NCBI GenBank assembly: GCA_001462235.1
Contig: LIUI01000030.1
Coordinates: 1 to 45,793 of the forward strand
From: Fibrobacteria bacterium GUT307
GTDB taxonomy: Bacteria; Fibrobacterota; Fibrobacteria; Fibrobacterales; Fibrobacteraceae
Length of the DNA stretch: 45,793 bases
Direction: 5' to 3'
The notes below the pieces were generated by a model. That model saw only the letters and a list, made by a program, of their open reading frames with translations, did no database searches and was not told the DNA's origin. Of this stretch, positions 6,172 through 40,053 are shown piece by piece; positions within the stretch are counted from its first letter, which is position 1; each line of letters begins with the position of its first letter. The position numbers and the translations under genes are program-made.

Positions 6172-6321
6172 GGCAATCTCCATTAGGGTATAAACCTTAA
6201 AAGATAGAAAATACAAACCGACAATAAACTGACAATAAAATATCACATAAAAATGCTTTTTTTGCTTTTATATCCCTTTTTTCTGAAAAAAATTCTATAT
6301 TTATTAAAAAGCGGGGTATCC

Positions 6322-8577: not shown

Positions 8578-9791
8578 AAATAATCTTTTTAATTACAATT
8601 ATATGTTTTGCTATTTCCTTTGCCGGCCCGGTTTCTTATTATGGCGAACTTAAAGTTCGCCCAACTACTCCTTTTATAGACGGGGCAAAAATAGGTGCTA
8701 GGGTGCAAGTCCGGGGGGTTAGCCTTGGCTGGAGCAATACGGGCTGGGAGAGTTCAAGGTTTTTTAACGAAACATCCGTAAATGCAATGGTTGACCATTG
8801 GAAAGCAGAGATTATTCGCACTCCAATGGGGCAAAACGATTCAAGCAATAAAGCAAGGGTTAAAACCGCTATAGAAGCAGCAATAGCCAAAGATGTTTAT
8901 GTTGTAATAGACTGGCATTCCCACAATGCGCACAACGAAACAAATGCCGCTAAAGCATTCTTTACAGAAATGGCGCAAAGCTATGGCAACTATGATAATG
9001 TGATATTTGAACTTTACAACGAGCCTTTGAATGCAGAGTGGGCAGATATAAAAGCTTATGCGGAGCAGGTTATTCCGGTAATCCGTGAGCATTCTGATAA
9101 TCTTATACTTGTTGGCACCCCATACTATTCCCAAAAAATCCAGGAAGTTATAGGAAAAAAAATTAAAGACAGCAACCTTGGCTATGTAATTCACTTTTAC
9201 GCCGCAAGCCACAACGTGGAGCTTTGGCAAAACAACATGGTTAAAGCTATAAACGATACAATGCCTCTTTTTATAACGGAATACGGCACAACTCATGCAG
9301 ATGGCGGTTGCAGCCCGGAAGCATCTTACAACGAAAAAGATTGCCCTGTAAGCCATTACAATACACACAATGCAGCCCGCTCAGATGCTTGGCATGCTTT
9401 TATGGATAGCAGAAAAATATCCTCTGTTGCTTGGAATATAAACGATAAATACGAGGGTTCTGCATTTTTTGGCACGGTTCCTATTCTTGGAGGCGGCACT
9501 TTTGAGCAAAACATTCCAGAAAACTGGGCAGATACAACAAAAATGACCGAATCCGGTAAGTACATATTCAAAAAATTGAATGAATACCATTTAACCGCGC
9601 CTTGGAACCCAACTCCCATATTGCCTGCAAGCCAGCCTATTTTGCCAACACCTGGGACCATTGTTGAGGTCTATTCTTTGCAAGGCAAAAAAGTGGGTAA
9701 AGATGTCTCAAATCTTAAAAACGGGGTTTATATCTTTCTTTTGAAGGAAAATGGCATAGTTCAAACAAAAATTTTTAGGATTGTTAAATAA
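8574..9791 (+). CDS. GH5 endoglucanase with T9SS-like tail (tandem paralogue)
   Basis: VVIDWHSHNAH, VIFELYNEP, LFITEYGTTHADGG; TTG start overlaps the upstream stop by 4 nt; C-term VEVYSLQGKKVGKDVSNLKNGVYIFLLKENGIVQTKIFRIVK. Confidence 0.9.
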   Translation: MKIIFLITIICFAISFAGPVSYYGELKVRPTTPFIDGAKIGARVQVRGVSLGWSNTGWESSRFFNETSVNAMVDHWKAEIIRTPMGQNDSSNKARVKTAIEAAIAKDVYVVIDWHSHNAHNETNAAKAFFTEMAQSYGNYDNVIFELYNEPLNAEWADIKAYAEQVIPVIREHSDNLILVGTPYYSQKIQEVIGKKIKDSNLGYVIHFYAASHNVELWQNNMVKAINDTMPLFITEYGTTHADGGCSPEASYNEKDCPVSHYNTHNAARSDAWHAFMDSRKISSVAWNINDKYEGSAFFGTVPILGGGTFEQNIPENWADTTKMTESGKYIFKKLNEYHLTAPWNPTPILPASQPILPTPGTIVEVYSLQGKKVGKDVSNLKNGVYIFLLKENGIVQTKIFRIVK

Positions 9792-10852: not shown

Positions 10853-11578
10853 ATGTATAAAACTATTCCCGTTTTCTTAACGGTTTTGTTACTGTTTTTT
10901 GCACTTTCATCTGCAGCTTTTAGCGATTACCGAGATAGGGATTCCCAACGATTTTTGCCCAAAACCATTAAACCATTCCATACAGACCAAGATGTGGTAA
11001 CCGTGATAATGCGGGAAAGCATTCCAAGGGGCGGGGGCTACACCTACCAGTATCCCCGCGAAAATCCGGAACCTAAGCTCACAGATAAATACGCTATGGA
11101 AGGTGATTTATCTATGGAAATAGAACTGGTAGCAAGCGATTATTCCGGAGTTGCAATTTGCATAGCAGGTTCTGCAGATATATCCCCATACCTAGAAGAA
11201 GGCGTTTTGCAGTTTTGGATTAAAGGAAACAAAGGCGGCGAAATTGCCCAATACGTGCTGGTGGACGACGGCGTAAAAAGCGGTGGAGAATCCATGCAGG
11301 TAAAAATAGGCTCCAAAAGTTTTGGAGAGATTACAACAGAATGGCAAAAGATAAGCATTCCTCTTAAATTATTTGGAGAAACAGGTGTTTATTGGGATGC
11401 TAAAAATTTAAGAGAAGTGCTGCTGCCTTTTTCTTGGAACAACGTAAAGGGCTTTAGAATAGAAGTTCGCAAAGACGAAAATCAAGCTTTCAAGGTTTGG
11501 ATAGACGATATTGTCATTAAAAAAGTGGGCGAAGAATATCAAGGTCCGGCCGGTTATCCGTTCCGCAATGTTCTGTGA
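10853..11578 (+). CDS. Secreted carbohydrate-binding-like (galactose-binding-fold-like) protein
   Basis: Signal peptide MYKTIPVFLTVLLLFFALSSAAF; beta-rich ...LQFWIKGNKGG...WQKISIPLKLF...VKGFRIEVRK...VWIDDIVIKK. Confidence 0.6.
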   Translation: MYKTIPVFLTVLLLFFALSSAAFSDYRDRDSQRFLPKTIKPFHTDQDVVTVIMRESIPRGGGYTYQYPRENPEPKLTDKYAMEGDLSMEIELVASDYSGVAICIAGSADISPYLEEGVLQFWIKGNKGGEIAQYVLVDDGVKSGGESMQVKIGSKSFGEITTEWQKISIPLKLFGETGVYWDAKNLREVLLPFSWNNVKGFRIEVRKDENQAFKVWIDDIVIKKVGEEYQGPAGYPFRNVL

Positions 11579-11585
11579 GGATTGC

Positions 11586-13895
11586 ATGAGAGAAAGTTTT
11601 TTCTGTTTGTTTTTTTTAGCGTCCTTTGCATTTGCACAGAGCGATGCAATAAATAAATTGCCGTTGGTAGAAGACCGTTTAGATTCCCTTGGAGAATACG
11701 CAGCTTCTACAGTTATAGGCAAAGACGATTCTCCCGTTGCTGTTTCCGGGGATTTTGCCGTTCGCTTAGGTCATTATGAATATACCGAGACCGCCACCCT
11801 GCAAGGTTCTGAAAAAATGCGAACCTTTATAAATTCTGCATTAAATGCTTCTATCGTTGTTTCTCCGGCATCTTATTTAACCCTATTTTCCAATCTTTAT
11901 CTGCCTTTTGATTTCAGTGGTTTCTTTACAAACGAGCAGGCTTTTAAGCCTAATCTGGAAAATTTTGGCAATTCCGGCGAAAGGGTGCAATGGTTCCACC
12001 CATCAACTGATTTTTACGGAGTATCCGTAAACGAAAACATGCTCGTTGGTTTGGATATGCGTGGCGGGAGTTTTGGCGCAACCCTCCTTATGGGCGGTGT
12101 TATTTGGACCACCCAAAGCCCTCTTAGTTTATACGAACGTGAAACAAGCCCCCGTTTTGTTTCTCAATACGAGCTTTACGAAGAAGAAAAAGTTGTTAGC
12201 ACTTACTATAAAGAAAAAAGTTTTAAGCCGGTAAAAGAGGGAGGCCGAGCATTTTGGACAAATCGTTCTTTTGGTGGTTTGCTGTTAAATGTTCATACAT
12301 TGCCTTGGAACTTAAAAGGGCAGCTTATGCTTTCTCAACCCGCAAGTGTTGACATCGGTGTAAGGGATGGTTTGCGCCTTAACACTAGGGACAACAGTGA
12401 ACTCGCAATGGTTGGCACCTACGATTATCGCGGCACTGTGGTGGGTGGGCGTTTTGCCAAAGAAAAAATTGAATTTGGCCAGGCTAGTTTAACTCTTGGC
12501 GCAAATTACACAGGCATCACTTTTGATAACGAACTAGTATATGAAACTTCGGCTTACAATCGTGGTTCTAATCCGGATAGCAGTGTAAAATTTGAGAACC
12601 TGCGTATTGCAACCATAGACCTAAAAGGCAATTTAACACCTCAATTCTTTTTATCCTTTGATTTAGCGTTCAGTTGGGACGATACAACCGTGTTTCGCCC
12701 AACCGCGCCTTGCGACCCGGCTAAAGATAGAGAAAGATGCTATGATGCTAATAACTACAGTTCCGTAACATCTAGCCCTGCTTTTGGTTTATATGTAAAA
12801 GCCCAAGATAAGCATTGGCAGCCCATGACTCTGGAACTCATTTATTTGCCAAAAGATTTTTATTCTCCTTACTCAATGGCTAACCCAGATAGAGTTTCTG
12901 CATGGCGTAAAGACCAATTCTATGTAGGTGCCGGCACTTTCCGCTATGGGCCAAATATGGTTGGGGCAAACTTAAAAATAGAGCCTGAATTTAACCGTGG
13001 CCGTTTTGATATACAGTATGGCATTCATAAACAAGTAGAAAAGGGCTTAGATGTAATTAGTTATAAATATAATTTGGTTGGGCGGTATTTATGGGAAACC
13101 TCTACAAGCTGGACTAGGCATAAGCCATTTTTCACAGCAGATTCCGGTTATTCAGATACCAAAAGGCGTTACACTTCTAGGTTAGCCGTAGGCCCGGGCG
13201 GTCCAAGAAACAATATATTCAAATTAAGCGACCAAGAGGGTGGTTTGCGAAGTGGCTACGGTGAAACTTGGGATTCCTTTATCCCTTACGAGAATATTCA
13301 AGATGCCATTTATTGCGACCAACTCAATTTTTACACCGAGGCAGATTATCCAAACGCCCCTTGCAATATGCCTACAAGCGTAAAATGGAATTCCTCAATA
13401 GCTTTAGATATGGGCTATGATATTGGGCATTGGTTTGGCACAGACAGAAATATAATGCTATCCCTTTACACAGCTCTTTCTGGTGTTTCTACATCATTTA
13501 TGCCGCTTGCTTACACAGATAAACGCTCAGATGATATGCTAATGTGGAATTGGTTTGCGCAATCTGAGCCTGCTATTGCAATTACCCCAAATTTTCATGC
13601 GATTTTAATTTTTGGAATGGAAGTTTTCCGTGCAGAAGTTGCTTATGCGGCACCAACCGAGCGTGTAGCGGCAAGCAATCCATACGGCGGGAAATATCCA
13701 TTTGGTATTTCTGGCTACGTGGTTTCTCCTATAAATGTTTTGCAAACCTCTTTGGGTTTTGGTTTTGACTGGGATTTTGCCGCAAGAGCGGGTTTGCATT
13801 TTCGCTATAGATACTTGACCAATAAAGATGAATTTTTGCCGCAAAATGATTGGAGTGTTCACTATATTCAAGCCGAAACAAAGGTTTGGTTTTAA
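11586..13895 (+). CDS. Outer-membrane beta-barrel-like protein (family member 1)
   Basis: Signal peptide MRESFFCLFFLASFAFAQS; alternating aromatic strands; C-term WSVHYIQAETKVWF; shared block IWTTQSPLSLYERETSPRF. Confidence 0.65.
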   Translation: MRESFFCLFFLASFAFAQSDAINKLPLVEDRLDSLGEYAASTVIGKDDSPVAVSGDFAVRLGHYEYTETATLQGSEKMRTFINSALNASIVVSPASYLTLFSNLYLPFDFSGFFTNEQAFKPNLENFGNSGERVQWFHPSTDFYGVSVNENMLVGLDMRGGSFGATLLMGGVIWTTQSPLSLYERETSPRFVSQYELYEEEKVVSTYYKEKSFKPVKEGGRAFWTNRSFGGLLLNVHTLPWNLKGQLMLSQPASVDIGVRDGLRLNTRDNSELAMVGTYDYRGTVVGGRFAKEKIEFGQASLTLGANYTGITFDNELVYETSAYNRGSNPDSSVKFENLRIATIDLKGNLTPQFFLSFDLAFSWDDTTVFRPTAPCDPAKDRERCYDANNYSSVTSSPAFGLYVKAQDKHWQPMTLELIYLPKDFYSPYSMANPDRVSAWRKDQFYVGAGTFRYGPNMVGANLKIEPEFNRGRFDIQYGIHKQVEKGLDVISYKYNLVGRYLWETSTSWTRHKPFFTADSGYSDTKRRYTSRLAVGPGGPRNNIFKLSDQEGGLRSGYGETWDSFIPYENIQDAIYCDQLNFYTEADYPNAPCNMPTSVKWNSSIALDMGYDIGHWFGTDRNIMLSLYTALSGVSTSFMPLAYTDKRSDDMLMWNWFAQSEPAIAITPNFHAILIFGMEVFRAEVAYAAPTERVAASNPYGGKYPFGISGYVVSPINVLQTSLGFGFDWDFAARAGLHFRYRYLTNKDEFLPQNDWSVHYIQAETKVWF

Positions 13896-13910
13896 GCGAG
13901 GCTATAGAAT

Positions 13911-16094
13911 ATGAATAAAAAACTGATTTTTGCCCTTTTCTCTTGTTCTGTAGCTTTTGCTGCAGAGAATTTGGAACAGCAAATAGATAATAGGTTAGAA
14001 GATATTAACGCACGTAAAGGAATTGAAATAGGCGGAACAGTTCGCAGTGCTTCTTATAATTCTTATTTTGAATCTCCCCAAGACAAAGCAGGTGCAAATG
14101 GCGTATTCACAAATAAAATGCCAAACCATGAAATAGCGGAATTTGTGCAATTGGATTTGGATTTTAAATTCCGCCCCTGGGATATTATAAATGCCAACTT
14201 GAAATTGCGTTTAGGTGCGGGAATGCAAGAGTACTTTGCCGCCGCCTCTACAACGGTAAATGTTCCGTGGATGAATATAGAAGGCAATTGGGGTGAGAAT
14301 TTTTATTGGGTTGTAGGAGACTTTCGCCAGTCTTATTCTCCGTTAACGCTTTATATGCCGGGTTTAGACATTATGTATGAGCCAACGGCTTTTGCCCGTA
14401 AAAGAGAAATGGCTCAAAAAGATGCCCTATTAGAGGGCAACCAAAGAAATTTGCAGGGCTTTAATTTGCAATTCCGTCCACAGCTCGGGGAACTTTTGGG
14501 TGAACTTAGAGTAGAAGCACTCGGTGCGCGTTTGCGCCGTGCAGGTTTTTTGGATGCAAGCGGGGCAATGGGCAATATGCTCCCTAACGAAGGCATTCCG
14601 GGTGCTACCCAAGCGGGGCGTTTTGATAAATTCTTGTTAGGCGGCAATCTTGAATTATTGCCTCTTAATAAAAACCTGTTAGTTGGCGCTACTTACTTGT
14701 CAATATTTGACGATGAAAGTTCTTCTAAATACTACGATACCACAGGCTTGCGTTTAGATCAATTTAATAGGGATTTCTTGGTAAACACTTTGGATTCTTT
14801 GCCTCAAAAAACAACTGTTTTCGCAGGCCGCTTAGGTGCAGATGTAGCTGGCATATTGGAGAGCAATTCTTTGATAGCAAATTTAACCGCAGAACTTGCA
14901 ATGTCTAACGATGAAGTTGCCGGCGTTCAAGAAACCGGCAAAGCAATTCTTGCCCAAATTGATTTGGGTTATAAAGAAGATGCTATAAATATTGTTCTCT
15001 CCAGTTCCTTTATTCGCAACGATTTACATTGGTTTAACAATGTAGCCCAGTCTCCTTCCTTTTTTGCACGTAGAGTGCTAAACAGCGATAAAGATGTTGG
15101 TTGCAATTCTAATACATGTGCAACATCACAAGACCAAGCTTTAAATTTAAGCAAGTATGGGGTTTATTCACCCCTTTATTCCACATTCGATGCTCTTTAT
15201 TTCTTTACGCCAAAGCATTCTCCAATGACAGCTTCTCTTGGTTCCGGGGAGCCACTAGCCGGTGCGCAAACAGATAGCTACAATATAAGGCCATACACTA
15301 AAAATTCTTGGAGCACCTCTACTTTAACACGCGCAGAACTCGCTTTGCTGGAGGAACTTTCTGACCTTAACCTGCAAATGGCTTTGCCAAGTGGTTTTGC
15401 AACCTCTAACCGCACAGGTTTTCAAGAGGTTTTAACAGCAAATTGGAAGGGTTTGGCAGAAGTAAAAGGTTTATTTGCCAGCTTTGAGCAAGTCTCAGAA
15501 AATGCCGGGGCAAAACCCGCAAAATACACGGAATTTGGAGGTGGTGCAAAGGTGGATGTTTTGGGATTTTTGGGCTTTGAGCAAAACCCCCTTGAGTTAA
15601 GCGGGAGTTATAAAAAATCTGCAAAAGAACAGCAATGGGCAAACTTTGGGCAGGCAGAATTTACCAGCGATTTTATGAATGCTGGTGTGTATTACCGCTT
15701 TTTTAGAAAGTTTGGTTTAACTTTGGGGTACCAGCAAATAAATTCAGATATGAATTTACCCGGAGCAAATGCTCAAAGGGAGCAAACAGCTAATCTAAGA
15801 GTTTCTATTGTTCCGGTTGTAAAGGCAACTCAAAATCAGTGGATGGCAGGCATAGACTACACTGTAGCCCCCAATGCTTGGCTTTCCATAAACTACGGAG
15901 TTGTGAGTGTAGAAAACACTTATAACGTAGAGGGTTTTGTGGATGAAGAAGGGAACATAATCAGAGTAAATAATGGTAAAAGAACGAATTTACCCGGCTA
16001 TGCTGTTGTAAACGGAGTTGAGGCGGGAAAAACGGAGTTAAAGCATGAATTTTCGCGTAATATTCTTGAAGCAACCATCAATGTGGAATTTTAA
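13911..16094 (+). CDS. Outer-membrane beta-barrel-like protein (family member 2)
   Basis: Signal peptide MNKKLIFALFSCSVAFAA; VVGDFRQSYSPLTLYMPGLDIMYEP...LLEGNQRNLQGFNLQF; C-term ILEATINVEF. Confidence 0.7.
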   Translation: MNKKLIFALFSCSVAFAAENLEQQIDNRLEDINARKGIEIGGTVRSASYNSYFESPQDKAGANGVFTNKMPNHEIAEFVQLDLDFKFRPWDIINANLKLRLGAGMQEYFAAASTTVNVPWMNIEGNWGENFYWVVGDFRQSYSPLTLYMPGLDIMYEPTAFARKREMAQKDALLEGNQRNLQGFNLQFRPQLGELLGELRVEALGARLRRAGFLDASGAMGNMLPNEGIPGATQAGRFDKFLLGGNLELLPLNKNLLVGATYLSIFDDESSSKYYDTTGLRLDQFNRDFLVNTLDSLPQKTTVFAGRLGADVAGILESNSLIANLTAELAMSNDEVAGVQETGKAILAQIDLGYKEDAINIVLSSSFIRNDLHWFNNVAQSPSFFARRVLNSDKDVGCNSNTCATSQDQALNLSKYGVYSPLYSTFDALYFFTPKHSPMTASLGSGEPLAGAQTDSYNIRPYTKNSWSTSTLTRAELALLEELSDLNLQMALPSGFATSNRTGFQEVLTANWKGLAEVKGLFASFEQVSENAGAKPAKYTEFGGGAKVDVLGFLGFEQNPLELSGSYKKSAKEQQWANFGQAEFTSDFMNAGVYYRFFRKFGLTLGYQQINSDMNLPGANAQREQTANLRVSIVPVVKATQNQWMAGIDYTVAPNAWLSINYGVVSVENTYNVEGFVDEEGNIIRVNNGKRTNLPGYAVVNGVEAGKTELKHEFSRNILEATINVEF

Positions 16095-16103
16095 GGGGTG
16101 AAT

Positions 16104-18218
16104 ATGAATTTGCAATTAACATCTAAAACCGCCTTGTTCGCCTTGGGTTTGTTTTCTTGCCTTTCTTTTGCTCAAGAAGCCGATGCTTCTGTGGAGAGCA
16201 AAGCCATGCTTTCCGTATTAGACAGCATAGAAGAAAATGTTACAGGTTTTGCCGTAAACGGGCGTGCTAAAAGCGGGCTTTTGTATTCCGGTTTAAGTTC
16301 AGAAGCTTTGCCGAATGAAGAAAAAGTTTCCGAATATTCTGCCTTTACGGATTTTTTGCTAAGTATTTCCGTGCGTCCAAGCAATGAAACAAAAGCTACC
16401 TTTGACCTTCAATTTCACAAAGACTGGCAATCTGCCTACCGTGAGGGCAATAATTCTCCTATAATAAGATGGTGGTCTTACGATGGCAACATTTTAGATA
16501 AAAAACTAAAATTCAATTTGGGAACAATGCGCCTTGCTTATACGCCTTTAACACTTTATTTGCCAGAACCAGACCTTATAGCAGAACCGGAGATATTTTC
16601 CGATCTCAAAAAAGAAGCTATGGAAGAAAGATACCTAGATGGCACAAATCGCAGGCTTTTGCAGGGTTTGAATCTTGAATTCTCAACTCCGGCAGGAATT
16701 TTGGATAAGGTATTTTTGCAGGGAACCATTGTGCGCTTGCGCAAAGTTGCAGACGAAACAGATAGAGTCTCTTTTGATTTTGACCCAAATAAAGACAGAT
16801 TTTCTGCCGGTGCCCGCATTGGCATAGAAACATTCGGTTTTTCCTTTAGCTTAAACGAAATTTACACCTTTAACAGATACGGCAGTTCTTTAAAAAATGT
16901 TAGAGTAGATTCCCTTATAGACTACGAAAGGAACAATGTGCTGAGTTTTGAATTAAATTATAATGGAAAAGAACTGCTTTCTGGCCCGATTGGTTTTGGT
17001 GTTGGGGCAGAGTATGCTATTTCCAGATGGAACTACAGGCGAGATGGAAGAATAGAAGGAGACTCAGTAACCAACTTGGTATTTTTGAATATGGATCCAA
17101 GTTTGATACCTGTTTTTATTTCACCATCTGCTTCTGGGAGTATTTACCCGTATTACAGAACTACTGTGAGTTCCTCTCCCAAATACAAAGTGTTAAGGGA
17201 TAGTTCCTTGAACAATAATGGAGCTTTGCTAGCAAATGCTTTTATTACTTTTAACCAAGAGCCTTTTGATGCAAAATTATCTGCTCATTACTTAAATATC
17301 AATAAATATTTTGAATCAGAACTTGCTGCATCCCCTGCTTATTTGCCCGGCTTGCCTATATTGAACAGCGATGCTGCTCTAGGTTATGGTTTGGCGCAAT
17401 TCCGCACGGCTTCTTTAGAAAATATGTATTATTCCAATTATTACACTTTGCCTCTTAGTGCAGCAACAATAGTGAGTGGTACTCAAGGGCGGCCAGCTAA
17501 TGTGATAAACGATAGTTCTTTTTCCAAATCTGTACGCCTAGATAATAATTATAAATTGGTTCATTACTACCGCAATGCTTACACCCAGCAAACATATACG
17601 CGTATGGAGCGTGAAAAAGACTCACATTTTGCATTCATAGACCCTTCTGTAAACATGGCTTTGCCTTATGGCTATGCCACTCCAGATAGAAGGGGTGCTG
17701 GGGCAGATTTGAATTTCACTTTCAATAAAGCTATTCGGTTGAGTGGAGTGTTTGGCTCTTATTCCTCTGAATTTAGCGATTATACCCGTTTGGGCGGTGG
17801 TTTGGAAATTAATGTGGCAAGTTTGGCAGGTTTAAGCAATGCTATTGTAATTTCTGGCTCTTATGAGCAGAATAAAGAAGAAGGAGGCGTTTATAACCCC
17901 CAAGTTGACCGCATTATGGCAGGAGCAAAAGTAGTTCTATGGCGCAACATTTCTTTATTAGGCGGTTTTCAGCAGCTTTCAAAGGAATATAAAAATCCTT
18001 ACGTAATTGTAAACGATGCAGATGGTTATTTTGCTGTTAACAAAACAGGCGAAATGTTGGTTATAGCGGGCCCGCAAATTAAAATCAGCGAAAGGGCAAA
18101 TTTCTCTTTGCAAGGTGGTTTGCTCAAAAACTCTATTTCCTTTATAATAGACGAAGGTAAAAAAGATGTTGATTTAGATAAATTTATTATGTCTGGCTCG
18201 GTAACGGTGGAGTTTTAA
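16104..18218 (+). CDS. Outer-membrane beta-barrel-like protein (family member 3)
   Basis: Signal peptide MNLQLTSKTALFALGLFSCLSFAQ; FNLGTMRLAYTPLTLYLPEPDLIAEP...YLDGTNRRLLQGLNLEF clearly related to member 2; C-term MSGSVTVEF. Confidence 0.7.
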   Translation: MNLQLTSKTALFALGLFSCLSFAQEADASVESKAMLSVLDSIEENVTGFAVNGRAKSGLLYSGLSSEALPNEEKVSEYSAFTDFLLSISVRPSNETKATFDLQFHKDWQSAYREGNNSPIIRWWSYDGNILDKKLKFNLGTMRLAYTPLTLYLPEPDLIAEPEIFSDLKKEAMEERYLDGTNRRLLQGLNLEFSTPAGILDKVFLQGTIVRLRKVADETDRVSFDFDPNKDRFSAGARIGIETFGFSFSLNEIYTFNRYGSSLKNVRVDSLIDYERNNVLSFELNYNGKELLSGPIGFGVGAEYAISRWNYRRDGRIEGDSVTNLVFLNMDPSLIPVFISPSASGSIYPYYRTTVSSSPKYKVLRDSSLNNNGALLANAFITFNQEPFDAKLSAHYLNINKYFESELAASPAYLPGLPILNSDAALGYGLAQFRTASLENMYYSNYYTLPLSAATIVSGTQGRPANVINDSSFSKSVRLDNNYKLVHYYRNAYTQQTYTRMEREKDSHFAFIDPSVNMALPYGYATPDRRGAGADLNFTFNKAIRLSGVFGSYSSEFSDYTRLGGGLEINVASLAGLSNAIVISGSYEQNKEEGGVYNPQVDRIMAGAKVVLWRNISLLGGFQQLSKEYKNPYVIVNDADGYFAVNKTGEMLVIAGPQIKISERANFSLQGGLLKNSISFIIDEGKKDVDLDKFIMSGSVTVEF

Positions 18219-31149: not shown

Positions 31150-33606
31150 ATGCACAAATTTTCTTTATTTTCTGCGGTTCTTCTCTGTGCTTTTTCTTTT
31201 TCGTTTGCTCAGGATATTCTGGTCAATGTGGTGGGGTATGAAAAAAGCGGCGCAAAACGCGCTGTTATTCAGCATACAACTTCAATTACAGATACTAAAT
31301 TCGAAATAATTGATGCACAAGGTAATGTTGTTACCAAAAACCTTGGGGCACAAGCCTCTGTCAAAGGGTGGAGCGGCCGTACTTTTAAGGTGGCAGATTT
31401 CAGTGATTTTAAGCAGGATGGTAAATACAGGTTGAGAGTAGGTTCTGTAACTTCGCCGGAATTTGAAATTGGTGAAAAAATTTTGCAAAGGGAAACAGGG
31501 GCTTTTCAGGTGAGCTTCTTTAATGGAATGAGGAATACCGACGAAGGCGACAGCAACTTGGGGATTCGCGGCAGTTCGCAAACCCACAATATCTACGGCG
31601 GTTGGTGGGATGCCACCGGAGACCCCGGTAAGCATCTTTCCCATTTGTCTTATGCTAATTATTTTAATCCTCAGCAAATACCTTTGGTTGTATGGGCATT
31701 GCTCCAAGCTAATGAATTTCAGCCTACGGTTTTCTCTACGCTAGCAACAGAAGAAGCGGCATGGGGTGCAGATTATCTCTTGCGTTCTCTATCTACTGCC
31801 GGTTATTTTTATATGTCGGTATTTGATGACTGGGGTGCTGGGTATCGTGAAATCTGCGAATGGAGCGGTTCGGACGGAGCGCGTTCAGATAGTGCAAATG
31901 CTTACCGGTCTGCAATGCGTGAAGGTGGCGGTGTATCAATAGCGGCTCTTGCTAGGGCGAGCAAAGCCGGTATAAGCGGCGATAGTAGCTTTGCCAGGTA
32001 TCTTGCGGGAGCAAAGCGTGCTTATGCTCATCTCAAAGCCAATCCTACTACATATCAGAACGATGGCAAAGAAAACATTATTGATGATTACACAGGTCTT
32101 CTCGCTGCAAGCGAACTTTACAACGCTACGCAAGAAAATGAATACCTTATAGACGCACAAGCTAGAGCAGCTTCTCTTTTGGCATATCAATCTGAGGATG
32201 GATGGTTTTATAGCGATAAGCTCAAAACGCGCCCATTCTACCATGCCGCAGATGAGGGCTTTCCTGTAGTTGCCCTTGCACGCTATGTGGAAATATGCAA
32301 GCCAAGCGATGCGGGAAATATACGGCAGGCAATAAGGAAAAACTTTCAATGGTACATAGACATAACCTACCAAGAATCAAATCCCTTTGAGTATGTTAAA
32401 ATGTATGGCTCTACTGGGGCCGGAACAGACCCAACTGCTATAAATCTTGCATTAAACGGCACAGCTACCGCTTCCCGCTCGGAAGGAGCATATACACCGG
32501 ATAAAGCGATTGACGGAGGTTCCACAAACGACTCTAGATGGTCAAGCTATCAAAGCGGGGCAACAGATAATGATGTGCAGTGGATAATCATAGAGCTTGA
32601 AGAAACTTATAAAGTGAATAAAGTTGTTCTAAATTGGGAAGCCGCATATGGAAAGGTTTATGACATAGAAGTTTCCACAAATGGAACTAGTTGGATTAAA
32701 GTTGCCGGAGAAACAAATAATACAAGTGTTGGACGTAAGGAATATTCATTTACTGCGACCAATGCCCGTTATGTAAAGATGAATGGTAAACAGCGAGGAA
32801 ATGAATACGGTGGATTTTCTCTTTACGAATTTGAAATATATGGCGAACAGGAGCAACCGATTACTCTCAAATCCCCGGCACGTTTCTTTATGCCTCACGA
32901 TAACGAAACTAAGTATTGGTGGCAAGGGGAAAACGCCCGCATAGCTTCGCTTTCTGCGGCTTTTGCAATGGGTGCGCAACTTGCTGCCCTAAACCGCGAG
33001 TTTTGGTACGACACTCTGTTTGCCATGACTACTGCACAGCTAGACTGGATACTTGGAAAAAATCCCTTTGGGGTTAGCATGATGTTTGGGTTTGGAACAA
33101 AAAATTATCCCGATTATACTCCTGGCGCAAGAATGCGTTCCAACATTAAAGGCGGAATTTGCAATGGCATTACTGCTATGGACGGGAATGAGAGCAATCT
33201 GGAATGGAAACCTTATAGGGATGATGAATGGCAAAATTGGCGTTGGATTGAACAATGGCTTCCGCATAACGCTTGGTATCTCACAGCAATCTCAGCTATT
33301 TCGTACACAATAGATAATCCCATTACGCCAATCAAAAAAAGCGATTTGGCAAAAGCTTCTCATTTTAAAATTTCGGTCATTAACGGCAGGAATATGAATG
33401 TGGAATTGCCTTTTGCCGCAGATAAGCACACAAGCATTGATATTTACAATATGCGTGGGCAAAAACTGCTTTCTTACAGCGTACCGGCAGGCAATTTATA
33501 TGCGACTATTGAGATGCCCTCTAACATAAAGCATGGCGTATATATACTGAGTGTTAAGAATATGGCTGGAAAAACTGCCTCCGGCAGGTTTATATTCGGT
33601 CAATAA
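31150..33606 (+). CDS. GH9 cellulase with N-terminal Ig-like domain, internal F5/8-type C (discoidin/CBM32-like) domain and T9SS-like tail
   Basis: GGWWDATGDPGKHLSHLSYANYFNPQQ; WWQGENARIASLSAAF; LDWILGKNPFGVSMMFGFG; internal NLALNGTATASRSEGAYTPDKAIDGG...YVKMNGKQRGNEYGGFSLYEFEIYG. Confidence 0.9.
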   Translation: MHKFSLFSAVLLCAFSFSFAQDILVNVVGYEKSGAKRAVIQHTTSITDTKFEIIDAQGNVVTKNLGAQASVKGWSGRTFKVADFSDFKQDGKYRLRVGSVTSPEFEIGEKILQRETGAFQVSFFNGMRNTDEGDSNLGIRGSSQTHNIYGGWWDATGDPGKHLSHLSYANYFNPQQIPLVVWALLQANEFQPTVFSTLATEEAAWGADYLLRSLSTAGYFYMSVFDDWGAGYREICEWSGSDGARSDSANAYRSAMREGGGVSIAALARASKAGISGDSSFARYLAGAKRAYAHLKANPTTYQNDGKENIIDDYTGLLAASELYNATQENEYLIDAQARAASLLAYQSEDGWFYSDKLKTRPFYHAADEGFPVVALARYVEICKPSDAGNIRQAIRKNFQWYIDITYQESNPFEYVKMYGSTGAGTDPTAINLALNGTATASRSEGAYTPDKAIDGGSTNDSRWSSYQSGATDNDVQWIIIELEETYKVNKVVLNWEAAYGKVYDIEVSTNGTSWIKVAGETNNTSVGRKEYSFTATNARYVKMNGKQRGNEYGGFSLYEFEIYGEQEQPITLKSPARFFMPHDNETKYWWQGENARIASLSAAFAMGAQLAALNREFWYDTLFAMTTAQLDWILGKNPFGVSMMFGFGTKNYPDYTPGARMRSNIKGGICNGITAMDGNESNLEWKPYRDDEWQNWRWIEQWLPHNAWYLTAISAISYTIDNPITPIKKSDLAKASHFKISVINGRNMNVELPFAADKHTSIDIYNMRGQKLLSYSVPAGNLYATIEMPSNIKHGVYILSVKNMAGKTASGRFIFGQ

Positions 33607-33623
33607 TTTATATATTTATGCCT

Positions 33624-35942
33624 ATGCAAGCTATAGTCCTTTTTTCCGCACTTTTCTTTATGGTGGGGAGCATTTTTGCCGCTCCTCTGAATCTAACAGG
33701 CACAGTTAAAACCGAAAACGACTCTCCTGTTGAAAACGCCGTTGTTTTGCTAAAGGTGAACGATGGCCTTATAGCATACGCTCGTACTTTGAGCGGTTCA
33801 AACGGCAATTTTGTTCTTTTGCCGGGTAAAGATGCTCCAACTCCTATAGCAAGGTCGGTTGCACTCCTGCCTACTAAGTTTGCGAGCTATCAAGCAATGG
33901 ATTTGAAGGGACGTGCTTATGGTCATTTGAACAATTTGCCGCAGGGTATTTATGTTCTTTTGGGCAAAACCGAAAGCGGCAAAAGCGTAAATTTAGGCAC
34001 TGTTTATCACAGGGGCGGAGCACTGAAAATCGGTGAAATTACGCAAAAGGAGCAGAAAGTTAAAAACCTGGCTAAAACCGTTGGCAACGATGAAGTTCGC
34101 TTGATAGTACGCAAAGCCGGATATTTGCCAAAAGAAGTCCTGTTCAACAACTTTGATGAAAATGTTGGAATCGTTGTTTTGGAACGCGATCCGCTTGAAA
34201 GCCGTATTGACGATGTAATGGCTACGATGAGTGACCAAGACAAGATTTATCAAATGACCCAACCTCTCGTTTCTGCTGGCTCCTATGGCGGCCCCAATTC
34301 CGACAGAAGTCTTTTCGGAAGTGTTTTGCAAGGCGGCGGTGAATATAGTTCAACTTTTTTAAATAGCATGAATACTACGTTAAGCAGTTGGGCCAAAGCG
34401 AAAATCCCTGTGACTTACGGCAAAGATTTTGTTCATGGAACTTCCGATATTGAAGGCTCTACCATATTCCCGCATAACATAGGGCTTGGAGCTACCAGAG
34501 ATTCTGCTTTGGTGCGCGAGATAGGTGAGGCAACGGCTAAGGAATCTTGGGCTGGGAAAGTGGATTTGATTTTTGGGCCTGCAATTTCGGTTCCGCAAAA
34601 TGAGCGTTGGGGCAGGGTTTATGAGGGCTTTGGGGAAACTGCAGAATTGGCGGTAATGATGGGTGCAGCCATGGTTCGTGGCTTGCAAGGCGAGAAATAT
34701 GATGCGCCTTGGCGTGTTATAGCAACAGCAAAGCATTATTTAGCAGATGGCTCAACAACAAATGGAAAAGACAGAGGAAATAATGCAGATATAACCGATA
34801 CTGAATTAAGAGCTGTTCATTTACCCGGATATGAAGCTGTTGTGGAGCAAGGTGTTTTGAGCGTTATGGCTTCTTTTAATCAAATTGGAGGTGTTCATCA
34901 GCATGTTGATTCTTTGCGTTTAACGGGATGGCTAAAAACCGAGCTTGGTTTTGACGGCTATATAATCAGCGATTGGCAAGGAATTGCAAATTCCACAAGG
35001 CCGGGATTTACGGAAGATTATGGTGGCGGTGGCGGCGGCGGCCCGACTTTAACTTCCGAGGCAGTTCGTAAGGCAATAAATTCAGGTATTGACCTTGCTA
35101 TGGAACCTAACAGCCATACACAATTTATAAACCTTTTAACCGCTCTTGTAGAGGAGGGCAAAGTATCTAAAGCTCGCATTGACGATGCTGTGCGCCGCAT
35201 TTTGCGTGCTAAATTCCGTGCGGGCAGAATGGATAATCCTCAAGGCCCTACGGCATATAGCGGTGCAAAAGGTACGCATCGCAATCTCGCAAGGAAAGCT
35301 GTTCGCCAAAGTTTGGTTCTGTTAAAAAATGATAACAATGCGTTGCCTATTTCAAAAAGTGCAAAAGTTTATTTGTTTGGCCAGCCTTCAGACATTATAA
35401 CTAACACTAGTTATCAATGCGGTGGCTGGACACTCGGTTGGCGGGGTTCATATAATTACGATATGTACGGCAATCCAACCAATGCAAAGAACGTTCCGGG
35501 TGCGACATCCATTCAAGCCGGCATAGACCTGGTTGCGTCAGGTGCAATTGTTTCCAATGCGGATAATGCCGATGTTATTATTTATGTCACCGGAGAAAGC
35601 CCTTATGCAGAATGGCATGGCGATATAGACAATATAACCTTTGACGATAATAATGCGTCTCAGTTAAGCACCTATAAAAATCAAGGCAAAAAGGTTGTCA
35701 CTGTTTTCATAAGCGGGCGTCCGAGAGAAACAAATTCTCTTTTAGACGCAAGCCATGCTTTTGTAGCGGCGTGGTTGCCGGGTTCTGAGGGTGCGGGCAT
35801 TGCGGATGTTCTTTTTGAAGGGCCTTATAATTTCACCGGCAAACTTCCTCACACATGGCCTCGCGATAAATCCGTTTTTCCTATGAACAGCACTCAAACA
35901 AGTGAAAAGTGGTTCCCCTATGGATACGGGCTTACATACTAA
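33624..35942 (+). CDS. GH3 beta-glucosidase-type enzyme with N-terminal carboxypeptidase-regulatory-like domain
   Basis: GFDGYIISDWQGI; VIATAKHYLADGSTTNGKDRG; ends WFPYGYGLTY. Track start 33618; ATG at 33624 fits the TATATT spacing better. Confidence 0.9.
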   Translation: MQAIVLFSALFFMVGSIFAAPLNLTGTVKTENDSPVENAVVLLKVNDGLIAYARTLSGSNGNFVLLPGKDAPTPIARSVALLPTKFASYQAMDLKGRAYGHLNNLPQGIYVLLGKTESGKSVNLGTVYHRGGALKIGEITQKEQKVKNLAKTVGNDEVRLIVRKAGYLPKEVLFNNFDENVGIVVLERDPLESRIDDVMATMSDQDKIYQMTQPLVSAGSYGGPNSDRSLFGSVLQGGGEYSSTFLNSMNTTLSSWAKAKIPVTYGKDFVHGTSDIEGSTIFPHNIGLGATRDSALVREIGEATAKESWAGKVDLIFGPAISVPQNERWGRVYEGFGETAELAVMMGAAMVRGLQGEKYDAPWRVIATAKHYLADGSTTNGKDRGNNADITDTELRAVHLPGYEAVVEQGVLSVMASFNQIGGVHQHVDSLRLTGWLKTELGFDGYIISDWQGIANSTRPGFTEDYGGGGGGGPTLTSEAVRKAINSGIDLAMEPNSHTQFINLLTALVEEGKVSKARIDDAVRRILRAKFRAGRMDNPQGPTAYSGAKGTHRNLARKAVRQSLVLLKNDNNALPISKSAKVYLFGQPSDIITNTSYQCGGWTLGWRGSYNYDMYGNPTNAKNVPGATSIQAGIDLVASGAIVSNADNADVIIYVTGESPYAEWHGDIDNITFDDNNASQLSTYKNQGKKVVTVFISGRPRETNSLLDASHAFVAAWLPGSEGAGIADVLFEGPYNFTGKLPHTWPRDKSVFPMNSTQTSEKWFPYGYGLTY

Positions 35943-36138: not shown

Positions 36139-39100
36139 TTACCTGCTAATAACCAATTTCTGTTTCTTTTCAAAAGTTTTTTTGCTTCCGCTCTCTGTTG
36201 ATTGCACGGTGCTTTGCACAATGTAATGGTAAAGTCCGTTTGCTAGCAAACGTCCCCTTGAATCCCTGCCATCCCAATGAGTTATTCCGGAAACTGCATT
36301 ATTTATGGTTTTGACAAGTTTTCCGTTTTGGTCAAAAATCTTTATTCTAACATCGCTTAGCCTTTCTCCGAATAAATTTTTGAAATAAAAAACAGTTCCG
36401 TTTTTTTTCATAGGATTAGGCACGTTAAATACATCCGTTAAACCCTCTTTGTTTTCTTGGCTAAGCGAAATTCTAAGAGAACGAGATGCAACATTACCTA
36501 AAATATCCTGTGCATTCACTTTAAAAACATATTCGCCAGGGTCGTAGGATGTTCCAAAATTCATTTTTGCAGCAGCACGTTTTCCGGTTTGCTCAGATAG
36601 TGGCCAAGGGTGCCAAGCATCTTCAACAGGGCTTACCTCAAAAGTAATTCCTTCATCTGCTTCTTCTCTATAATCTATGCCGGTAGAATCTCTTATTACA
36701 ACATCCAAGCAAGCTGGAATTTCCAAACCTATCTGTGCATTCTCTGCAAAAGAAGTGGCTATTCCGGAGCGCATACATGGATAGATATTTATGCTCGGGG
36801 GGGTAGTATCATTGATTGAATTTGCATAAGGTGAAGTTCCGGATAGCAAAATACCATTTACCGCCATTCTTCCTATTTCAATAGTTCCGGGCTTGTAACT
36901 CCAAAGCCTTATTTGTGCAGAAGTATCGCCGAATGATAGTTTGCGAGGAGTGATAAATTCTGTTTGAAACTTGCCGTCTTTTATCTCCAGTTCTTCGCTA
37001 TAAATAGGATTGCCCGGTATTTTTATATTTGCAGAACAATAACTTTCGTCATTGCAGTTTTTTTGAGTTAAAGTTCGGGATTTTTCGCCTTCCAAAACTT
37101 GTATGCGAACTCGCCCTGTTTGCACAGAAGCCTTACCGGAAATAGGTAGCTTTTGCAAAGCCTGAATTGTATCCGGGGCACTGTCTAGTTGCAGCGAAAT
37201 TCCCCTTCTTGGCATACTCAAAACAGGTTCTCCCAAAAGCACATATTTTGTGTTATTATACCTTTGATCAGCAGAGGTAAAATCAATGCTTTGTTTTACT
37301 CCAAAGATAGCGTCTCCTAAAAGATTATTCTGATTAAATAATGAGTATTCTAGAACTTTCTCTGAAAAATTTACATTTTGAGTGGCATAAACCTCCCTTA
37401 AAGCACCGATTGCAGCTATAGCCCCTTTGGATTTTGCGGTCACGAATGCTTCGGAAAGGCCTACAGAAGATGCGTCATCAAAACGAGCGACTGAGCAAGA
37501 AAAAGAACCTAAAATAGTGTACCTCCCGGAATCTGGATATACATTGCTCAAAGAAGATGTATTCAGTAAATCTTCGTCTGCCCATTGAACGGTATTTCCG
37601 TGCCCGTAATACATTGTGAAAAGTGCGCCTTGATTTAAGCGAAGCAAAAGTTCCTTTGCCGCACCTGGTTTTTTGCCACTACCGTCTTTTTCATATTGGA
37701 GCAAGGAAATTTTTCGCATATCCATTGTAAAGTTTTCTTTTCTTGAAAGTGAATCTATAAGGGTTGCGGTTCTTTCCATTTGTAATGTATGTTTAATATT
37801 ATCAATATTGCTTCCCTGCATTGCATCATCTGCGTTAAGGATAATTGTATTTCGCCAACTTCCATTGTTCATGGCAAAAACTTCTTCATAATCCTTTACT
37901 TTTTGAATGTAATTATCAAACTCATTAGTGTTTGAAACAGGAAGGCGCCCTATAGATAAAGATAAATTATATTTCCCAAATCTCACCACCTCACCACTAT
38001 CTAAAACGGCAAAAAAATCGTCTGTGGATAAATCTTCTGATTCATAAGGCGGGATTAAATTATCCCTTGAGTTAGACCTGATTTTTCTATAATCATAATT
38101 GCCATGCCCGGCGAGCAAAACATATCTTAAATTTTGGCACCGTTCTTTTGCATATCTTAGGTAATCTCTGATGGCAACAGGTGAATTCTTTTGCGCTCCG
38201 TGATTTCTGTAAATATCTTCTACCAAAACCACCGATGTATTTAATTTTATAGGAGCAGTGCCACCTTCTCTAAATTGTTTTAATTTAGCGGCACTATTTT
38301 GCAAAATCTCCGAAGTTAAAATCAAATATTCAGGGCAGGCATCAGAAATTTTCAACGGGTCTAAAACAGAATATCTATTTGGAATGGCTTCAATAAACGC
38401 CGGGGTTTTATAGCTGCCTTTTCTATGCAAAAAATATTTTGTATCTCCATCGCTTGATATTGTATCGCTTGTTCCTTCTAAAATTTCTACCGGAATAAAA
38501 TTTTTTACTTTTATGAGTTCCATATTTGCCGGCACGGGAATTTTCACTGCTCCGCTTGCAAACCCCGGAAACAGCCATTCGTTGCCTGGGCTTTTTGTTA
38601 TGTTGTAATTGTAGGCAATTGACAAGCCGTCAAATTTGTCATTTTGCCGAGTGCTGGAAATTTCCAATTTATATGAATTATTCGTTTCCGTTGCTTTGTC
38701 GCTTGCAAAAACAAATGCTCCGCCAACCGTGTCTATTGGTTCTAATTTTTCATTTTGAAAGAAAAAATTAAAATTTATGCCTTTCATTCTTTCTTTCCAA
38801 GACCAATTCCAGTTTTCTGAGGTTGAACGTATCGGGAAAAATGTCACTCCTATGAGTATGGATTTTCCATCTATGCCGTTCAAATTTTTAACGGAATTTT
38901 GGAAATCTGCTTGATTAACTGCAACTGTGGAATTTTTCTCACCCCATACCCAAAACCATTCCTTGCCTGTATTATCTTCAATTGAATGGTCGCCAAAATA
39001 GTTATCTCGCAAAATTGAATCCTTTTCTGAGCGGGCATATTTTTTCCAAATTATGTCTCTTGCTCCGCTTATGTTTTTTGAATTGCTCCCTAGTGTTTCT

Positions 39101-40053
39101 CCTGTTCCGCCTACACCTAGATAAAAATATTGGTAAAAACTATATGGTGAATTGGAAAAATAATAATCCATCCCGCTTTGAGAATGGCTTTTTTTCCAAA
39201 TTGCAGTTCCATATCCAAAGAATACTATAGAATCGCCTTTATCAAAAATTCCATTACTGTTTTTGTCTTTGACTATTATTGGGATTTCTTCTGCATTTGG
39301 GAAAGTTTCCTCTTTGTTAATTTTTTCTGGCAATGTATCCGGTGATGCGCTAAACAGCCTTAAGGCAGAGATTTTTATTCCGGGATCGCTAATTCTTTTT
39401 TCCACATCATCAAAAGAAATAGCATACATTCCATCTGCAAGTGTTGATAAATCTGCGCTGCCAATTCCAATTCTGAGCAGCCAGTCTATACCTGCCATAG
39501 AACTTTTCAAAGCCTTGCGGGAACTTAAATTTATTTTTGTTCCGAATTTCGTGGCGGCATTTTTATTTTCAACTTGTGAAAGTGCTCTTTTGCCCGGCAA
39601 GTAACCGTTTGCGTTTCCACTGAAATTTATTTTCACCCTAAAATCTTTCCGTAAATTCCATGAATTGCCGCTTGAATAAATCAAAGGAATATTGATCTTA
39701 ACTCTCCATAATCCATCTTTTAGGTAAGGCTCGCCGATTTTTAAGGAGTTTTGTTCTGCTCCGCACGGCTTGCCGTTTAATTTCTCGGTTTTAATGTTTT
39801 CTAGGCTAACACTTGGCAGTGAAGAATTTGGCAATGCTATTGTATATGCCCTAAAAGGAATGCCTGGGGTCTCTGCTTTGCCAAAAAAAGACGAGTTTTC
39901 CGGCATAAAAAGAACTTCATTTTGGCAAGGACCTTCGCTTAGAGCCGCAACTTTGTCCGTAAAGATGAATTCACTTTGGTTGTCGCGCTGAATTTCAAGG
40001 GCGAATATGCCAATAGGTAGCAAAATAAGGGTTTTAAAGATGCGAAAGATCAC
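36139..40053 (-). CDS. porU: Type IX secretion system sortase PorU-like C25 (gingipain-family) peptidase
   Basis: LRYVLLAGHGNYDYR; LFTMYYGHGNTVQWADEDLLN (His) and YTILGSFSCSVARFDD (Cys); signal peptide; FlgD-like C-term with WDGRDSRGRLLANGLYHYIV. GTG start. Confidence 0.8.
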   Translation of the reverse strand: MIFRIFKTLILLPIGIFALEIQRDNQSEFIFTDKVAALSEGPCQNEVLFMPENSSFFGKAETPGIPFRAYTIALPNSSLPSVSLENIKTEKLNGKPCGAEQNSLKIGEPYLKDGLWRVKINIPLIYSSGNSWNLRKDFRVKINFSGNANGYLPGKRALSQVENKNAATKFGTKINLSSRKALKSSMAGIDWLLRIGIGSADLSTLADGMYAISFDDVEKRISDPGIKISALRLFSASPDTLPEKINKEETFPNAEEIPIIVKDKNSNGIFDKGDSIVFFGYGTAIWKKSHSQSGMDYYFSNSPYSFYQYFYLGVGGTGETLGSNSKNISGARDIIWKKYARSEKDSILRDNYFGDHSIEDNTGKEWFWVWGEKNSTVAVNQADFQNSVKNLNGIDGKSILIGVTFFPIRSTSENWNWSWKERMKGINFNFFFQNEKLEPIDTVGGAFVFASDKATETNNSYKLEISSTRQNDKFDGLSIAYNYNITKSPGNEWLFPGFASGAVKIPVPANMELIKVKNFIPVEILEGTSDTISSDGDTKYFLHRKGSYKTPAFIEAIPNRYSVLDPLKISDACPEYLILTSEILQNSAAKLKQFREGGTAPIKLNTSVVLVEDIYRNHGAQKNSPVAIRDYLRYAKERCQNLRYVLLAGHGNYDYRKIRSNSRDNLIPPYESEDLSTDDFFAVLDSGEVVRFGKYNLSLSIGRLPVSNTNEFDNYIQKVKDYEEVFAMNNGSWRNTIILNADDAMQGSNIDNIKHTLQMERTATLIDSLSRKENFTMDMRKISLLQYEKDGSGKKPGAAKELLLRLNQGALFTMYYGHGNTVQWADEDLLNTSSLSNVYPDSGRYTILGSFSCSVARFDDASSVGLSEAFVTAKSKGAIAAIGALREVYATQNVNFSEKVLEYSLFNQNNLLGDAIFGVKQSIDFTSADQRYNNTKYVLLGEPVLSMPRRGISLQLDSAPDTIQALQKLPISGKASVQTGRVRIQVLEGEKSRTLTQKNCNDESYCSANIKIPGNPIYSEELEIKDGKFQTEFITPRKLSFGDTSAQIRLWSYKPGTIEIGRMAVNGILLSGTSPYANSINDTTPPSINIYPCMRSGIATSFAENAQIGLEIPACLDVVIRDSTGIDYREEADEGITFEVSPVEDAWHPWPLSEQTGKRAAAKMNFGTSYDPGEYVFKVNAQDILGNVASRSLRISLSQENKEGLTDVFNVPNPMKKNGTVFYFKNLFGERLSDVRIKIFDQNGKLVKTINNAVSGITHWDGRDSRGRLLANGLYHYIVQSTVQSTESGSKKTFEKKQKLVISR

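Follow-up and report, generated by a model that had tools for sequence, protein, structure and literature searches.

Three exo-acting GH9 enzymes with solved structures, PBPRA0520 (5dgq/5dgr), VC0615 (6gdt) and VP2484 (3h7l), are glucosidases or exo-beta-D-glucosaminidases. VC0615 acts on chitosan oligosaccharides and has weaker activity towards cello-oligosaccharides (PMC6096475). Its exo action has been ascribed to two long loops, one between helices 1 and 2 (residues 112-162) and the other between helices 9 and 10 (residues 404-442), which block everything past subsite -1 and leave a single sugar subsite (PMC6096475).

Carbohydrate-binding modules (CBMs) nested inside a catalytic domain are already known in families GH5, GH10 and GH13. 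The GH5 endoglucanase MtGlu5 carries a CBM29-like domain that is nested in a loop of its catalytic domain and is aligned with the groove for the substrate, and deletion of this domain lowers both affinity and catalysis (PMC9063844). The GH10 xylanases Pm25 and Xyn10C contain inserted CBM4s, and one of them (Pm25) is a termite-gut enzyme (PMC7848910). Their homologues carry CBM4, CBM22 or unclassified modules at the same loop, and excision of CBM4 from Pm25 leaves catalysis intact (PMC7848910). SusG is a GH13 enzyme with a nested CBM58 (PMC7848910). No nested CBM in GH9 was found in a literature search of titles and abstracts, with most subscription papers outside its reach, and the GH9 case described here appears to be new.

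A gene for a GH9 protein with a nested CBM32 was identified in a 45,793-nucleotide stretch of DNA (the window) from Fibrobacteria bacterium GUT307; among named genomes, bins of Candidatus Fibrimonas are its nearest relatives. The product is probably an exo-acting, inverting glycosidase of the glucosidase/glucosaminidase type that is exported by the type IX secretion system (T9SS) and houses a functional CBM32 in its alpha9-alpha10 loop. Visible in the sequences themselves are the nesting, the intact catalytic residues, both pocket-closing loops and the conservation of the insert, which within Fibrobacterota has been exchanged for a CBM6 once and lost once. If the proposal is true, the range of nested CBMs would come to include GH9 and an exo-acting enzyme, and their site would be the loop on which exo or endo action depends.

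Domain organisation and predicted export of the GH9 protein

The open reading frame is exactly the one originally predicted (plus strand, ATG start, 818 aa), and the encoded protein has a signal-peptide-like N-terminus. Its domains and the adjoining gene are listed in Table 1.

Table 1. Features of the GH9 gene and its downstream neighbour, in window coordinates
Feature	Position	Strand	Evidence
GH9 enzyme with nested CBM32, whole gene	31150..33606	+	ORF; Pfam; homologues
Signal peptide, residues 1-20 (MHKFSLFSAVLLCAFSFSFA)	31150..31209	+	By inspection; PDB and Pfam matches begin at residues 21-23
N-terminal Ig-like domain CelD_N, residues 21-102	31210..31455	+	PF02927, E 2.1e-16
Catalytic (alpha/alpha)6 domain part 1, residues 103-420, helices 1-9, Asp154 and Asp158	31456..32409	+	Alignment to 5dgq/3h7l/6gdt; 9 AF2 helices; VC0615 Asp140/Asp144
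Linker into insert, residues 421-431	32410..32442	+	Alignment; low pLDDT
Nested CBM32/discoidin domain, residues 432-565	32443..32844	+	4zy9 match, E 1.4e-23; PF00754; Foldseek to DD1/DD2
Linker out of insert, residues 566-576	32845..32877	+	Alignment; low pLDDT
Catalytic domain part 2, residues 577-722, helices 10-12, catalytic acid Glu701	32878..33315	+	PDB alignment; 3 AF2 helices; VC0615 Glu546
Sorting domain for type IX secretion at the C-terminus, residues 755-815	33412..33594	+	TIGR04183, 29.1 bits, cut-off 23; PF18962 just below its own cut-off
GH3 exo-1,3/1,4-beta-glucanase-like neighbour	33618..35942	+	Pfam; best PDB match 5m6g beta-glucosidase, then 3usz, barley ExoI

Pfam profiles place CelD_N at residues 21-102, Glyco_hydro_9 in two pieces (the first at 137-382), F5_F8_type_C at 439-555 (E 2.9e-21) and Por_Secre_tail at 750-810. 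The PF00759 (GH9) profile scores 57.9 bits, above its cut-off of 27.7, and the F5/8 type C profile scores 76.4 bits on the insert, above a cut-off of 28.2. In phmmer searches against the PDB, residues 23-422 and 577-715 together match one continuous GH9 domain in 5dgq (3-426, then 433-569), 3h7l (4-416, then 427-567) and 6gdt (3-416, then 425-560). These insert-free homologues, the comparison asked for by the original prediction, align on both flanks and have only 6-10 residues between the two matched blocks. The intervening residues 432-565, which were also searched as a domain alone, match the CBM32 modules DD1/DD2 (4zy9, E 1.4e-23).

A single catalytic domain that is contiguous in its relatives is here split by a complete CBM, as had been proposed when a discoidin/CBM32-like domain was placed inside the GH9 catalytic domain. 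Because both flanks match one continuous GH9 chain, the downstream segment belongs to the barrel, and residues 577-715 complete it. The nested architecture, as read from the gene, is real. The bounds first given for the insert (32430-32855) locate it correctly and are slightly wide, with a start that is out of frame; the insert proper has the limits in Table 1 and occupies about 32410-32877 with its linkers.

Two AF2 models were obtained from alignments of 10 and 12 rows, with mean pLDDT of 61 and 64. The linkers and residues 628-702 are poorly modelled; the models suffice to match folds but do not show how the CBM is turned towards the pocket. In the first of these weak models, nine helices before the insert and three after it make up a 12-helix barrel, in agreement with the split barrel for which such a check had been suggested. 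The top Foldseek hits of both models are exo-acting GH9s across the whole chain, with TM scores on the target of 0.68-0.70 for the first model and 0.59-0.60 for the second. The insert has a discoidin fold and superposes on the DD1/DD2 crystal structures with TM scores of 0.81-0.84 at 2.3-2.6 A.

The C-terminus scores above the cut-off of TIGR04183, the NCBIfam model for the T9SS type A sorting domain. The genome also encodes SprA (SprA_N hit) and has 19 Por_Secre_tail matches. A PorU-like C25 peptidase of 1304 aa (window 36139-40053, minus strand) scores 408.9 bits with NF033707, slightly under the cut-off of 420, and is a candidate T9SS sortase. With a C-terminal sorting domain on the protein and the machinery in the genome, the GH9 enzyme is predicted to be secreted via the T9SS.

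Active-site loops and the exo-acting subgroup

PBPRA0520, VC0615 and VP2484 are the best sequence and fold matches of the GH9 protein. They share with it the Ig-like domain, the (alpha/alpha)6 barrel, the Asp/Asp/Glu catalytic residues, the loop between helices 1 and 2 and the two flanks of the helix 9-10 loop, but have no domain at the insertion site, chains of 582-586 residues and no T9SS tail. Asp154, Asp158 and Glu701 align with Asp140, Asp144 and Glu546 of VC0615, respectively. The helix 1-2 loop has 51 residues, compared with 54 in 5dgq/3h7l, and contains the same motifs. The insertion point corresponds to VC0615 residues 416-425 in the PDB alignment, within the helix 9-10 loop, and the NPFxY and NE(S/T)xYWWQGE(N/D)AR stretches of this loop are intact on either side of the insert.

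The protein was first described as a GH9 cellulase. The GH9 fold is borne out, whereas the cellulase label is not. Since the closest characterised relatives are exo-acting glucosaminidases and glucosidases rather than endocellulases, the enzyme probably has a pocket for one sugar and no open cleft in which the nested domain could reposition substrate, as first suggested, and an endo-type cellulase identity is unlikely. A "cellulase" label, which such a protein would likely be given, would be corrected for one of several GH9s in Fibrobacterota of the termite-gut type; the same genome encodes three other full-length GH9s and one fragment.

Around C2 of the -1 sugar, the subgroup is characterised by Tyr148, Trp220 and Tyr or Phe232. 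The tryptophan is kept as Trp228 in the GH9 protein, whereas His162 and Trp238 take the places of the Tyr and the Tyr/Phe of the Vibrio-type exo GH9s. As two of the three residues differ from those of the Vibrio enzymes, specificity may differ as well. According to the source paper, the residues of the C2 region do not account for the preference for GlcN (PMC6096475), and the mismatch therefore limits the substrate claim and not the exo claim.

In the proposed mechanism, the one-sugar pocket would accept beta-1,4-linked oligo- or polysaccharides of Glc and/or GlcN by their non-reducing ends, and one sugar would be released at a time from the chain end. The CBM32, held to the pocket wall by two linkers, would grip nearby chain ends and keep the enzyme on chain-end-rich material, acting as an anchor and taking no part in the chemistry.

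Distribution and evolution of the insertion site

Relatives were sought in 168 Fibrobacterota genomes, and full-length matches were found down to about 39% identity. Contigs were scanned by exact peptide patterns, which recover close relatives only, and the survey of the site covers Fibrobacterota. In 18 proteins, encoded in 17 genomes, a CBM32 lies in frame at the homologous site and has the same junctions, which excludes chance. A nested CBM is indeed unusual for GH9, as originally remarked, but the present gene is not a one-off, and the architecture is phylum-wide in Fibrobacterota.

An assembly or annotation artefact (a chimeric contig, a frame error or two fused genes) is a conceivable source of such an architecture, given that the source genomes are mostly fragmented metagenome bins and that the reading frame of one family member (L008/L027) breaks within the CBM32. 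The open frame and the identical junctions in these 18 proteins, at identities down to about 39%, together with purifying selection in the insert, speak against it, as does the variant with a CBM6, whose halves are both nearest to the same relative (L017). The recurrence of the junctions in independent genomes refutes an artefact for the family, and for the gene itself the probability of one is negligible.

The nested domain is not always a CBM32. In L029 (the same as L009, 6001-8580), the domain at the same GH9 site is a CBM6 (PF03422, E 5.9e-12). Its two halves are both nearest to L017 (78.6% and 89.4%), so L029 is not an obvious chimera. The site is nearly empty in two relatives, L028 (1483-3552; the same as L057) and L040, with 11 and 15 residues, respectively. 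L028 is a close relative with a longer helix 1-2 loop (65 residues). A sister clade that includes a large genus (g5) has a short loop of 10-22 residues in all 22 proteins; we read this genus as Fibrobacter, whose sampled copies have the site empty.

For a tree of the catalytic domain, the columns of the insert were removed and 5dgq/3h7l served as the outgroup. All insert-bearing proteins form a clade with L028 and L040 (100/99), next to the group of 22 proteins that lack an insert (100/95). A topology in which the insert-bearing proteins are held together without L028 is rejected (p 1.7e-7), whereas one that leaves out only L040, which has a long branch, is not (p 0.21); the groups and tests were picked after the pattern had been seen. 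The simplest reading of these sequences is that the insert was gained once, was lost in L028 and gave way to a CBM6 in L029; independent gains of the insert are strictly still conceivable. Identities of the insert and of the catalytic domain co-vary (Mantel r 0.93, p 1e-4). The dN/dS ratio is 0.10-0.33 for the insert where estimable and 0.10-0.19 for the catalytic parts, rough values since several pairs are almost saturated at synonymous sites. The nested CBM32, judged by these substitution rates, is under purifying selection, and the natural insert-free relative L028 shows that at least one lineage can do without the CBM.

The swap to CBM6 and the loss suggest that the tip of the loop tolerates a binding module and acts as a docking slot for it. 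The varying CBM families at the GH10 loop resemble this exchange, although Pm25, Xyn10C and SusG have GH10 and GH13 folds, carry their modules in the beta3-alpha3 loop or the B domain, and are endo-acting. MtGlu5 likewise differs in being an endo-acting GH5 TIM barrel with a CBM of another family and from another organism. A bolder proposal, which we consider improbable, is that the helix 9-10 loop of exo-GH9s is an evolutionary docking slot for exchangeable modules (CBM32, CBM6 or none) in which the module directly shapes the active-site wall, so that the pocket for one sugar opens, becomes ordered or is fed once the CBM has bound a chain end; specificity would then change by module exchange inside the catalytic domain and not by mutation of the pocket. 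MtGlu5 and Pm25 disagree on the catalytic role of a nested CBM, which makes L017 (CBM32), L029 (CBM6) and L028 (empty) useful: this closely related natural set would be a ready-made experiment on that role. The GH9 site could also serve as a tolerated point for building nested-CBM enzymes.

No donor CBM32 was found in the same genome, in which the nested domain is the only F5/8 domain found. A genome of the same genus encodes a Ser-rich probable lipoprotein of 311 aa (L052, 982-1914), with a terminal CBM32 that is 53% identical to the insert and may be its source, its relative or its offshoot. A scan of viral contigs with the family alignment gave 17 pattern matches and no relatives. In a plasmid collection, 46 records were matched, none covering 80% of the query, and the best was an Aeromonas GH9 in two pieces (64% of the query). 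In a 2016 phylum survey (PMC4704652), CBM32 makes up 5.9-6.7% of the 15-17 CBMs per Fibromonadaceae genome, which by those figures corresponds to one CBM32 per genome; the place of CBM32 within the protein is not described in the passages concerned.

Two further members of the family are aberrant. In L008 (6001-8596; the same as L027), the GH9 frame is broken within the CBM32 into frames of 542 and 345 aa, through either a sequencing error or a real disruption. In L044, a divergent insert-bearing second copy in genome G035, the Asp that acts as catalytic base is replaced by Glu and the Arg of the CBM signature is absent; L044 is possibly an inactive paralogue.

Ligand signature, gene neighbourhood and substrate

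By sequence comparison, the nested CBM32 most resembles the chitosan-binding modules DD1 and DD2 of the Paenibacillus sp. IK-5 chitosanase/glucanase (4zxe, 4zy9, 4zz5), with whole-domain likeness at about 40% identity. DD1 and DD2 stand in tandem at the C-terminus of the Paenibacillus enzyme, whereas the CBM32 described here is nested in the catalytic domain. The ligand residues of DD2 were reportedly identified by Shinya et al. in 2016 as Glu14, Arg31, Tyr36 and Glu61, and these residue letters do occur at positions 14, 31, 36 and 61 of the DD2 sequence. Three of the four are kept in the insert, where Glu445, Arg463 and Glu497 align with Glu14, Arg31 and Glu61, respectively; the match of position 36 (Tyr36 in DD2, Glu36 in DD1) is uncertain. 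The Glu/Arg/Glu trio is kept in 14 of the 18 inserts, and the exceptions include L021-L023 (Gln for Glu14) and L044 (no Arg). About a dozen further CBM32s from the phylum were aligned; the trio is absent in most of them and present in a few, and is therefore not chitosan-specific evidence.

The insert could also be a structural element, such as a loop stabiliser, an oligomer interface or a cell-surface spacer, that has lost sugar binding. Both of its ends are fixed in the loop, the Vibrio homologue is dimeric in solution, and the signature is incomplete in some members (L021-L023, L044). The presence of the unrelated family CBM6 at the same site would be expected for sugar binding and not for a particular interface, and the signature residues are kept in most inserts; a purely structural role is thus quite improbable. 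A sugar-binding role of the nested CBM32 is preferred.

The enzyme may be a chitosan specialist, namely an exo-beta-D-glucosaminidase with a nested CBM32 that, like DD1/DD2, binds the non-reducing ends of chitosan (from fungal walls or deacetylated chitin). The nearest solved relatives of both halves (5dgq/6gdt for the catalytic domain, DD1/DD2 for the insert) are chitosan-active, and the three chitosan contacts are kept here and in most inserts. Against this stand the -1 pocket, where two of the three residues close to the 2-amino group differ, the presence of the Glu/Arg/Glu signature in other CBM32s of the phylum, the fact that close CBM32s elsewhere belong to beta-1,3-glucanases, the absence of a chitosanase among the proteins scanned, and the beta-glucan-related genes near the locus. 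Chitosan specialisation is accordingly rated as doubtful.

Those genes include the adjoining ExoI-like GH3 beta-glucan exohydrolase, which starts 12 bases past the GH9 stop and has among its PDB matches the exo-1,3/1,4-beta-glucanase 3usz, and a pair of neighbouring GH5 cellulase genes whose ends overlap (window 6253-9791, plus strand). Gene neighbourhood was considered as a guide to substrate and rejected, because the position of the GH3 is not conserved in most relatives. Elsewhere in the window (11511-18218, plus strand), three consecutive ORFs of 706-794 aa are followed by one of 304 aa, none with a Pfam match at E 1e-5.

The downstream GH3 and the nearby GH5s point to beta-glucan. The GH9 protein may act as an exo-glucosidase on beta-glucan or cello-oligosaccharides, with a CBM32 that binds beta-glucan chain ends or another glycan of plant or fungal walls. 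The three other full-length GH9s of the genome and the additional cleavage of cello-oligosaccharides by the Vibrio relative (PMC6096475) are in keeping with this. Among the relatives examined, a GH3 lies near the GH9 only in L002, and the others have unrelated genes there, which weakens the case. Activity on beta-glucan is held as a tentative reading with a chance somewhat short of even, and beta-glucan is placed ahead of chitosan as the substrate with low confidence.
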